The notes below the pieces were generated by a model, which was not told where the DNA came from, searched no databases, and worked only from the letters and a program-made list of their open reading frames with translations. From an uncultured Peptococcaceae bacterium (GTDB lineage: Bacteria > Bacillota > Peptococcia > Peptococcales > Peptococcaceae), in assembly GCA_949743265.1 (NCBI GenBank), contig CATJSX010000104.1, positions 1 through 41,742 of the forward strand: DNA of 41,742 nucleotides, in the 5' to 3' direction. Within the stretch, counting starts at the first letter, position 1. The number at the start of each line of letters is the position of its first letter. Of this stretch, positions 9,105-14,857 are shown piece by piece. The translations under genes were made by a program, and so were the position numbers.

Positions 9105-9295
9105 AACGATAAGAGCTAATTTTTTCATGTTTTTTCTTCCATAGAAATACAAATCAAAAAGTTGCTGCAAAAGTCGTTCAAAATAAGGCAGACCACTATA
9201 TACAATGAATCTGTTTTTTAGTATAATTTTCTTATGAATAAAAAATCATATGGCAAGCATTTGGTGCGAGGCTGCAATAGGAAAGGAGTATGATA

Positions 9296-9805
9296 ATGAG
9301 CGTATTGGAGAGTATGAAAAAAAGAGAGCTGCGTCGAGAATATACCATGATGCTGGGGGAAGAAAAAGCGGAATACTATTTGAATAAGTTTGATAAACTT
9401 ACCGCAAGCCGAAAAAAATTAAGTCTTAATTGGGCAGGACTGCTTTTTTCGACTTATTGGTGTTTTTATCGTAAACTGTTTTTGCCGGGCGCTGTATTTT
9501 TATTATTGAATTTTGCGGGGCTTTATCTGGTTTTGATGAAACCGGATTTGGCGTTGTTAGGCAATATGATTTCTGTTATTCCTACTGTAATTTGTGGTTT
9601 TTTCGGCAATTATCTGTATATGATGTATGTCCAGAAATCTATCGTTGTTGCCAACCAGTTGGCGACAACGGAAAAAGAACGATATTACGCTAATAATGGC
9701 GGTACCAGTATGCGAATTGTTTTAGGGATTCTGGCGGCGATGTTGTTTTTTGCTATGGCGTTGTTTTTTTCAGCAGGACCAGAAGTCATTGAAAGAATGT
9801 CCTAA
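9296..9805 (+). CDS. DUF2628 family membrane protein
   Basis: A 169-residue protein. A charged N-terminal region (about 1-40) is followed by LSLNWAGLLFSTYWCFYRKLF, the typical DUF2628 pattern in which an aromatic-rich helix precedes an R-K pair. Three or four hydrophobic helices follow, with the last near residues 142-160. The family's function is unknown. The ATG at 9296 is used, not the one at 9290, because AAGGAG ends only one base before 9290 but seven before 9296. It stands alone, converging on the Sel1-repeat gene with a shared terminator. Confidence 0.75.
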   Translation: MSVLESMKKRELRREYTMMLGEEKAEYYLNKFDKLTASRKKLSLNWAGLLFSTYWCFYRKLFLPGAVFLLLNFAGLYLVLMKPDLALLGNMISVIPTVICGFFGNYLYMMYVQKSIVVANQLATTEKERYYANNGGTSMRIVLGILAAMLFFAMALFFSAGPEVIERMS

Positions 9806-9858: not shown

Positions 9859-9951
9859 ACTATAGACTGGTAGTGAAAAATTTTTGGTGAAGCATACAAA
9901 AGAGTTTTCAATAGGCTGTTTTTGAAGCAGAATGATGTATAAGCAAATAAT

Positions 9952-9998
9952 AAACCACACAAAATTAACCGATTTGTTGATTTTGTGTGGTTTAAATT
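9952..9998. terminator. bidirectional terminator between DUF2628 and Sel1-repeat genes
   Basis: A 14-bp perfect stem (AAACCACACAAAAT at 9952-9965 with its complement at 9980-9993) and a 14-nt loop. It is flanked by T-rich tracts in both directions and placed between two converging genes. Confidence 0.85.
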
Positions 9999-9999
9999 T

Positions 10000-10740
10000 T
10001 TATAACCCTAATGTCTTTGCGGCTTCTTCATGACCGTGTTCAGCAGCTTTGCGATACCATTCTTTGGCGATGGCATCATCTTGGACGACGCCTTTGCCGG
10101 TTTGAAACATTTGCCCTAATACATATTCGGCATCAGCTAATCCTTGATCAGCAGCTTTTAAAAACCAGCTGAATGCTTCTTTATCATCTTGTTCCACACC
10201 TTCGCCATGGAGATAGCAAAGTCCGATATTAAATTGTGCGGCAGGATGATTGCGTTCGGAGGCTTCGCGATACCATTTCAGTGCTTCATCATGATTTTGC
10301 ACAGTGCCCAAACCCTCACTGTAACAAATCGCTAAATTGATTTGTGCTTCTAAATGACCTTTTAATGCCGCCATTTCATACCACTTAAAGGCTTCGTCAA
10401 AATTTTGTTCCAGTCCTTGTCCAAAAGTATAACATTCTGCTAAATAATGGCGAGCATGTGTATGACCTTTTTGGGCCGCGATTTTAAAATACTCGGCGGC
10501 TTTGCTCCAGTCTTGCGGTACTTCTGTTCCTTCATAATAGAGACAGCCTAATGTATAGCAAGCGTTGATGTTGCCTTGATCGGCTGATTTCGTGTACCAT
10601 TTTAGCGCTTCGTCAAAATTTTTTTCTACACCGCCGCCATGATGATAGCAAAGGGCTAAATTAAATTGTGCTCTAGCAAATCCTTCTTCAGCCGCATTTT
10701 TTAATTCTGCTAACTGAGCGGGATCCATATTGATCTCCAT
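10000..10740 (-). CDS. Sel1-like (TPR-type) repeat protein
   Basis: A 246-residue protein built almost entirely from six consecutive 36-residue Sel1 repeats plus a short partial one at the end. Each has the pattern A..LG..Y..G.GV..D...A..WY..AA..G. Such solenoids mediate protein-protein interactions; no enzymatic domain is present. There is no signal peptide, so it is probably cytoplasmic. The ATG at 10740 is supported by AAGGAGG seven bases upstream. The minus-strand TATAAT at 10793-10788, preceded by TGT, is a probable extended -10 element. The partner protein cannot be inferred, since neighbours are unrelated. Confidence 0.9.
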   Translation of the reverse strand: MEINMDPAQLAELKNAAEEGFARAQFNLALCYHHGGGVEKNFDEALKWYTKSADQGNINACYTLGCLYYEGTEVPQDWSKAAEYFKIAAQKGHTHARHYLAECYTFGQGLEQNFDEAFKWYEMAALKGHLEAQINLAICYSEGLGTVQNHDEALKWYREASERNHPAAQFNIGLCYLHGEGVEQDDKEAFSWFLKAADQGLADAEYVLGQMFQTGKGVVQDDAIAKEWYRKAAEHGHEEAAKTLGL

Positions 10741-10787
10741 ATGAGGTCCTCCTTAAAAATTGGTTGAATTTCTTTGTAATCGAATCT

Positions 10788-10796
10788 ATTATAACA
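10788..10796 (-). promoter_or_regulatory. extended -10 promoter element for the Sel1-repeat gene
   Basis: Minus-strand TGT-TATAAT, about 50 bp before the start codon. No convincing -35 is seen, which is common for extended -10 promoters. Confidence 0.5.
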
Positions 10797-10820
10797 TAGC
10801 AACAGCAACATGAATATGAA

Positions 10821-10896
10821 AATCTCTGCCAAATCACGGAAATCAAATACTGCCTAATGACGCATTAGCATGTATATACATCAATAGGCAGAGATT
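10821..10896. other. nested-hairpin region, possible structured RNA
   Basis: AATCTCTGCC (10821-10830) is perfectly complementary to GGCAGAGATT (10887-10896). Inside are TAATG-ACG-CATTA and the 12-bp palindrome ATGTATATACAT, giving a closing stem with two internal hairpins. An alternative partner (TGCCTA at 10851-10856) competes for the same right arm. It lies in the 293-bp gap between divergent genes and is followed by a terminator hairpin. A possible plus-strand promoter is TTGAAT (10764-10769), 17 bp, TATTAT (10787-10792). I match it to no known riboswitch. Confidence 0.4.
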
Positions 10897-10935
10897 GCCG
10901 CTTAAATTGATTTTGTTTAAGCAGAATTCAAAGTG

Positions 10936-10964
10936 AATTTTGTGTGTAAACACAAAATTTTTTT
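10936..10964 (+). terminator. intrinsic terminator upstream of cinA
   Basis: AATTTTGTG (10936-10944), loop of six, CACAAAATT (10951-10959), then an unbroken T-run to 10964. It lies about 70 bp before cinA with no upstream plus-strand gene, so it either ends a short RNA or acts as an attenuator for cinA. Confidence 0.65.
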
Positions 10965-11033
10965 CGTTAAATCTTGCATATACTGATATTTAGCAGTATG
11001 GTAAGGTTATACTATTTCGAGGGGGATAAACTG

Positions 11034-12275
11034 ATGAATGCTGAAATATTATGTGTCGGAACAGAATTATTGCTGGGTAATGTGATAAACACAAACAGCG
11101 CTTTTCTTGCTCAAGAATTAGCCAAGCTGGGCATTGATGTCTATTATCATACCGTAGTCGGCGATAACAATGAGCGGCTCAAAGAAGCGTTGGCAATTGC
11201 TTTTGAACGCAGTGATTTGGTCATTACTACTGGTGGTATGGGACCGACTTATGATGATTTGACCAAAGAAAGCATTGCTGATTATTTTGGTCTTTCTATG
11301 GTGCTACATCAGCCAACATTGGAAAAGATTCATGTTTATTTTGACCAGCGACCACAAAAAATGACTGCCAATAACGAAAAACAGGCGATGATTCCCCAAG
11401 GGGCTGTCGTTTTTGATAACCAAAACGGAACGGCACCCGGCTGTGCCGTCACACAAAATAACAAAACAGCCATTATGCTGCCGGGACCGCCGACAGAGAT
11501 GCAGCTGATGTTTGCTCAGTCGGTGCGTGCTTACTTAGCTCCATTTGTTGACAGCACACTAGTTTCGCATACGCTTTATTTATTTGGCATAGGTGAATCT
11601 ACTGTGGAAAATTTGTTAAAAGAATTGATGACTACTTCCACTAATCCGACGATTGCGCCTTATGCTAAAAATGGCGAAGTACTTTTGCGTATTACTGCTA
11701 AAGCGCCTAATACCAGCGAAGGCGATCGACTAATCCAACCAGTTATTGACCAAATTAGCCGGCAACTGGCAGATTATATTTATGGTATTGATATTGATAA
11801 TCTGCAAACGGCTGTGGTTAAGAAACTATTGGCGCATCATAAAACGGTTTCCAGCGCTGAGAGCTGTACTGGCGGCTTGATTAGCAAATTGCTTACCGAT
11901 GTTTCTGGCAGTTCGCAAGTTTTTTCTGGTGGCGTCTGCTCTTATACTAATACTGTTAAAGCTGATGTTTTGGCGGTCTCGCCGGATACACTAGCCCAAT
12001 ATACGGCAGTTTCTGAAGAAACTGTTATGGAAATGGCGCGAGGCGTTCGGCATTTACTAAAGACCGATTACGCTGTTGCTACAACGGGCATTGCCGGACC
12101 AGATGGTGGAAGTGATGAGCAGCCAGTAGGATTAGTTTATGTGGCAGTGGTCAGTGAAGATATTGCTGATGTGCAGAAACTCCATATTGATTTTGGACCG
12201 TTGACTAGCCGCGATGATATTCGTCAATATGCTGCCAAAGTGGCTTTATATCGCTTATGGTTGGCTATCCAATAG
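11034..12275 (+). CDS. cinA: CinA: competence/damage-inducible protein, NMN deamidase type
   Basis: A 413-residue two-domain protein. The N-terminal molybdopterin-binding-like (COG1058) domain carries CVGTELLLGNVINTN and TTGGMGPTYDDLTKE. The C-terminal domain (from about residue 260) carries SAESCTGG and GIAGPDGG, the pattern of nicotinamide mononucleotide deamidase (PncC/CinA). The family removes the amide of NMN in NAD recycling; in some streptococci the protein is competence-induced. The ATG at 11034 is chosen because GAGGGGG lies eight bases upstream; an earlier in-frame ATG at 10974 lacks a binding site. recA, often downstream in Bacillota, is absent. It is monocistronic and ends at a strong terminator. 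Confidence 0.93.
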   Translation: MNAEILCVGTELLLGNVINTNSAFLAQELAKLGIDVYYHTVVGDNNERLKEALAIAFERSDLVITTGGMGPTYDDLTKESIADYFGLSMVLHQPTLEKIHVYFDQRPQKMTANNEKQAMIPQGAVVFDNQNGTAPGCAVTQNNKTAIMLPGPPTEMQLMFAQSVRAYLAPFVDSTLVSHTLYLFGIGESTVENLLKELMTTSTNPTIAPYAKNGEVLLRITAKAPNTSEGDRLIQPVIDQISRQLADYIYGIDIDNLQTAVVKKLLAHHKTVSSAESCTGGLISKLLTDVSGSSQVFSGGVCSYTNTVKADVLAVSPDTLAQYTAVSEETVMEMARGVRHLLKTDYAVATTGIAGPDGGSDEQPVGLVYVAVVSEDIADVQKLHIDFGPLTSRDDIRQYAAKVALYRLWLAIQ

Positions 12276-12292
12276 TGGAATTTTAACCAATA

Positions 12293-12330
12293 AAAAAGCT
12301 TGCTGTTCATTTTAGAACAGCAAGCTTTTT
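12293..12330. terminator. bidirectional terminator between cinA and the DUF4405 gene
   Basis: A 16-bp perfect stem (AAAAAGCTTGCTGTTC at 12293-12308 with its complement at 12315-12330) and a 6-nt loop, with T-runs at the 3' side on both strands. Confidence 0.9.
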
Positions 12331-14573: not shown

Positions 14574-14626
14574 AAAAAACGTCTGGCTTGCTAAGCAATC
14601 ATTGCTTAGCAAGCCAGACGTTTTTT
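14574..14626 (+). terminator. terminator of the DUF1836 gene
   Basis: An exceptionally long perfect stem: 25 bp (14574-14598 with 14602-14626) with a 3-nt central gap. It begins with six A and ends with six T, so it can act in both directions. Confidence 0.9.
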
Positions 14627-14823
14627 ATTGTATTTTTTGGCAAACGAACTTGTTGATTATTTCGCTATGTTCTCATAAACTTTTGACGTAAAGTTATCAA
14701 ATGTTCTGTAGTAATATAATGGGCCGTGATGCGCGCCTCCGTGCTCTGTTTATTTGATGTTGGTTTATCGTTATCATTGTATCGTTTTGAAACACACTGT
14801 CAATAAGCGGGAATAAGAAAAAT

Positions 14824-14857
14824 GCAGCTATCTTAACAAGCGATAGCTGCGTTTTTT
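14824..14857. terminator. bidirectional terminator downstream of htrA
   Basis: GCAGCTATC (14824-14832) pairs with GATAGCTGC (14842-14850). T-runs follow in both directions (six T on plus, ATTTTTC on minus). It terminates htrA on the minus strand. The flanking sequences 14627-14823 and 14858-14943 contain no gene that I can support. Confidence 0.8.

Follow-up and report, generated by a model that had tools for sequence, protein, structure and literature searches.

A candidate short, terminated non-coding transcript between a sel1-repeat gene and cinA in an uncultured Peptococcaceae bacterium

Here, we report a small structured element in the spacer between a sel1-repeat gene (minus strand) and cinA (plus strand) of an uncultured Peptococcaceae bacterium (contig CATJSX010000104.1 of assembly GCA_949743265.1; "the window" below means the whole stretch of 41,742 nucleotides that was analysed). 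With somewhat better than even confidence, we read it as a short, lineage-specific, terminated non-coding transcript of ~165 nt that runs divergently from sel1 and is not the leader of cinA. Briefly, the transcript would start at ~10799 from a symmetric −10 element that sel1 would use in the opposite direction; the ~165-nt RNA (10799 to ~10964) would fold into two hairpins and stop at an intrinsic terminator; the terminator would keep the divergent transcription out of cinA, i.e., it would insulate the gene; and cinA would start from a promoter of its own just downstream of the terminator. Transcription of the element, its start site, the role of a conserved block as promoter and insulation as the main effect are all what we infer. 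The features are collected in Table 1.

Table 1. Features of the sel1–cinA spacer and its neighbours (positions in the window)
Feature	Position	Strand	Description
DUF2628 gene	9290-9805	+	
sel1-repeat gene	10000-10740	−	divergent to cinA
Candidate −35, TTGAAT	10764-10769	+	17 bp before TATTAT; 9/12 consensus matches
Symmetric −10, TATTATA	10787-10793	both	TATTAT on plus; TATAAT with upstream TG on minus
Hairpin domain	10821-10896	+	10-bp closing stem, internal loop, inner hairpin 10847-10875
Second hairpin, GCTTAAA/TTTAAGC	10900-10922	+	pair probability 0.72
Intrinsic terminator	10936-10964	+	10-bp stem 10936-10945/10950-10959, T7 at 10958-10964
CTTGCAT-N10-TTTnGCAGTA block	10973-10998	+	between terminator and cinA; conserved upstream of cinA
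cinA	11034-12275	+	MoCF-like domain, CinA KH domain, CinA C-terminal domain; ATG at 11034

The intrinsic terminator lies exactly where a first-pass annotation of this DNA had placed it, its stem and its run of seven Ts are exact, and it supplies, as judged from the sequence only, one feature of a stand-alone small RNA. An equally stable T-tailed hairpin was found in none of 100 shuffles of the spacer, in a search whose settings were picked after the site had been seen. A standard terminator scan did not report it, probably for the reason that the stem has only two GC pairs. The stems of the element fold on both strands (the minus strand folds about equally well) and the T-run follows the last hairpin on the plus strand only, which points to a plus-strand RNA. 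It had also been claimed that no plus-strand gene lies ahead of the element, but the DUF2628 gene does precede it on this strand. The DUF2628 transcript probably ends at 9951-9994, where DUF2628 and sel1 converge, because a 19-bp hairpin followed by AAATTTTT (−24.2 kcal/mol) is located there; our own scan for T-tailed hairpins omitted this hairpin, probably owing to its settings. A T-tailed hairpin on the plus strand only, in a spacer where the upstream gene should already be terminated, is one reason why we favour a non-coding unit. As a side observation, ATTTTGTGTG is common to the 9951-9994 hairpin and the terminator at 10936, which sit on opposite sides of sel1.

The closing stem of the hairpin domain (AATCTCTGCC/GGCAGAGATT, 10821-10830/10887-10896) is exact and has a pair probability of 0.79-1.0, and this part of the nested hairpins described by the first-pass annotation stands; the other part does not, i.e., the 12-bp palindrome ATGTATATACAT is present at 10870-10881 but makes no hairpin of the predicted fold, whose inner hairpin is the one given in Table 1. 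The whole element (10795-10970) folds at −40.1 kcal/mol with a z-score of −2.86, equalled by none of 200 shuffles; the first hairpin domain alone has a z-score of −3.26, and when the terminator is left out (10800-10935) the value is −2.34, with two of 200 shuffles as good. Among shuffled spacers, a 10-bp stem with at least five GC pairs appeared in 2 of 500 and an exact stem of at least 10 bp, whatever its composition, in 13 of 300. Sliding 160-nt segments along the contig gave 28 of 832 with an equal or lower z-score (30 shuffles per segment; a few of these segments overlap the element itself), and several of the best-scoring ones cover hairpins with T-runs, e.g., 12295-12328 and 14577-14623. 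The latter, an inverted repeat of 22 bp without mismatches, has T-runs on both strands and is a very strong candidate for a bidirectional terminator; a further T-tailed hairpin follows at 14820-14854. The main stem and the terminator beat most spacer shuffles; the structure is real and it is not exceptional.

These statistics bear on a rather improbable alternative, namely that the spacer is silent, that it lies at a junction peculiar to this lineage, that the terminator blocks stray read-through only, and that the hairpins are chance or decayed sequence. The segments of the contig that fold as well and the shuffles with a stem of at least 10 bp agree with such a spacer, as do the different gene neighbourhoods of the relatives described below; the terminator, without an equal among its shuffles, and the main stem, whose GC-rich composition was so rarely reached, do not. 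The hairpin domain also weighs on our own reading, which is weakened because a mere by-product would not need so strong a domain (z-score −3.26).

Upstream of the hairpins, the best plus-strand promoter site is TTGAAT-17-TATTAT (10764-10792), with a predicted start at ~10799, and the best minus-strand site is the TATAAT with its upstream TG, with a predicted start at ~10781 that is well placed for sel1. The two predicted starts are 18 bp apart, and this spacing, set by TATTATA, is another reason why a divergent non-coding unit is favoured. Divergent transcripts from bidirectional bacterial promoters were reportedly described by Warman et al. in 2021. In the accessible parts of two reports, 18 bp is the usual start distance at such promoters, where position −7 of one start falls on position −11 of the other (PMC10268837), and the commonest spacing, with 10 and 23 bp also common (PMC12825309). 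The −7/−11 coincidence of the two predicted starts holds at TATTATA, so that the element resembles the divergent non-coding transcripts of these sources (as far as their accessible parts go) in the symmetric −10, the predicted 18-bp spacing and the non-coding nature of the divergent RNA. It differs from them in having its own intrinsic terminator after ~165 nt, in starts that are predicted only, and in the T at −18, which the accessible part of PMC10268837 gives as typical, usual but not required, and which is absent here on both strands (on the plus strand, 10781 is a C and 10799 a G). The missing T, together with a plus-strand promoter match that is no better than chance (one in the spacer against 1.6 expected from shuffles), weakens our reading. 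A related idea, which we hold to be distinctly improbable, is that the element is an unclassified lineage-specific regulatory RNA that would be expressed in competition with sel1 from the shared symmetric promoter and would act in trans through its hairpin domain. No open frame of at least 50 codons lies inside the element on the plus strand, and the short non-coding RNA that the first-pass annotation had put forward as one of two options fits with this and with the promoter-like site, the hairpins and the terminator.

The other of these two options was a cis-acting cinA leader, a riboswitch or attenuator switching between antiterminator and terminator, and this we consider very unlikely. The position and orientation of the element would suit a leader, and so would an alternative pairing in the first domain, CTGCCT/AGGCAG. 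The competing arm that had been noticed earlier does exist; it is the CTGCCT at 10850-10855 rather than 10851-10856, and it pairs with 10886-10891. In the full fold this pairing has a probability of 0.00, and blocking the 5′ arm of the closing stem raises it to 0.71-0.72. The terminator, however, is left untouched: it forms at a probability of 0.80-1.0 whether the closing stem is blocked or not. The one antiterminator helix that was tested, ATTTTGT/ACAAAAT, has a probability of 0.00 in the full fold, and neither this candidate helix nor the closing-stem block gave an antiterminator pairing that is mutually exclusive with a terminator arm. A frame of 15 codons (10810-10857) was rejected as a leader peptide, as it has no visible ribosome site.

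An attenuator has its terminator between promoter and start codon, whereas the conserved block of Table 1 puts the likely cinA promoter after the terminator. The block is present in four of 13 genomes of the family (own included), once in each and always just upstream of cinA, and the relatives of genus g3 that carry it there are L071, L072 and L090. The region 10973-10998 is probably the cinA promoter region, i.e., cinA would have its own promoter there, with a probable −10 at either TATGGT (10997-11002) or TATACT (11008-11013). The consensus score of this proposed promoter is weak (7/12), so the promoter claim rests on conservation; the weak score weakens our reading, and so does the absence of the block from two of the five genus-g3 regions upstream of cinA (L073 and L074) and from the only other genome of the family with a full-length cinA (G003, locus L075). 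L073 and L074 have TTGCAA-17-TATAAT at a similar place before cinA. The block is at the same time a candidate operator, and a second cinA promoter may exist upstream of the terminator. It was observed in addition that the segment from the terminator to cinA (10965-11033) folds well on the plus strand (−18.3 kcal/mol, z-score −3.55) and that an inverted repeat, 10980-10988/10991-10999, overlaps the block. Because the cinA-linked block sits after the terminator, the terminator forms regardless of the closing stem with no pairing found to compete with it, and neither the 59 other relatives nor Rfam gave a match, the leader switch is not supported, and we favour the non-coding unit over it. In pneumococcus, a competence promoter precedes cinA, and no terminated hairpin RNA at this place is mentioned in the accessible parts of the reports concerned (PMC6560143, PMC11708029, PMC12029793).

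Conservation was examined with a covariance model built from the single sequence. Across 60 genomes (own plus 59 relatives; E up to 1, with stricter filters at the cost of some weak matches), only the window matched, and the same was found for the 21 genomes of the order, all among the 60, at E up to 0.1; the own genome holds no second copy at E 1 or better. Please note that the genome sets of family and order include no other genome of the source's genus. The first-pass annotation would have counted as refuting a lack, among relatives, of stems conserved ahead of cinA, combined with a lack of any plus-strand transcript, and the first of these is what the loci examined show: 68 loci brought in by CinA, some of which hold only the C-terminal domain or fewer than 100 bases before cinA, gave no convincing match (best outside the window E 0.17). 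Nine further loci, recruited through the sel1 protein and searched with filters off, gave weak scores only (best E 0.091, at L145:358-423, outside the sel1 match). We regard all the weak matches as chance, i.e., those of the window itself (E 0.071 and 0.63 on the minus strand, E 1.5 at 12283 on the plus strand), those in CinA loci (L091, E 0.17; L076, E 0.87; L065, E 1.2; L050, E 6.7) and the one in L145 with 20 weaker ones in sel1 loci. By DNA similarity, matches at E up to 10 were present in at least 97 of 100 genomes (own included); the short matches in other genomes were treated as chance too, the best of them among the matches listed being 35 bases long at E 0.002.

The neighbourhood is different in the relatives as well. 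A divergent gene before cinA, which we take from its translation to be argC-like, was found in all five genus-g3 loci that include the start of cinA, and a gene on the same strand precedes the sel1 relatives in 7/7 loci examined (of nine fetched). The differing neighbours and the lack of model matches together mean that the sel1–cinA junction and the element are seen in this genome only.

Known families did not account for the element. Against Rfam 15 the whole window gave nothing at gathering score. With the limit relaxed to E 10, no match was better than E 1.5 and every one stayed under gathering score; the earlier statement that it resembles no known riboswitch is borne out for this release. 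Like 6S RNA (RF00013), the element has a closing stem, an internal loop, an inner hairpin and a similar total length, but the genome's sole match to that family lies elsewhere (C176:34810-34992, 72.9 bits) and the element itself has none. The window contains no tRNA or tmRNA. A mobile or repeated element was rejected, the matches being one plasmid record at E 0.9 and three phage records at E 1, each covering 11-17% of the spacer; among viral contigs, two exact patterns of 20-21 bases had no match, a search that tests identical copies only. Partial matches in the own genome were found at C90, C184 and C78, those of C90 and C184 inside protein frames.

Intergenic small RNA genes usually have a promoter-like site, a structured 5′ domain and an intrinsic terminator. 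The element shares all three and their size, and this usual anatomy would also suit a functional trans-acting small RNA gene, i.e., the same transcript selected to pair with target mRNAs, for instance through the mostly unpaired stretch 10831-10846. We regard this as unlikely, though it deserves weighing: the covariance model met neither a homologue in the 59 other relatives nor a second copy in the genome, no C-rich seed was seen in any loop, and the element, in contrast to the established intergenic small RNAs, is known from sequence alone. Extremely improbable, in our view, is that the palindromes act as DNA and not as RNA, as operators to which a regulator of sel1 or cinA would bind. The 12-bp palindrome and GAATTC are indeed perfect palindromes, but a search of the 3.04-Mb genome for exact matches to the former gives a single site, and RNA termination accounts for the T-run that follows the last hairpin.

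Because it is seen in one genome only and cinA appears to have its own promoter, the element is probably a small non-coding transcript of an ordinary kind rather than a new gene switch. Nothing new is learned about the control of NMN recycling, since cinA seems to be served by this promoter of its own. If our reading is true, the element would add a further case to the lineage-specific small RNAs or terminated divergent transcripts, and it would illustrate on a small scale how the transcription of two adjacent genes is kept separate, the pair being peculiar to this lineage among the genomes examined.
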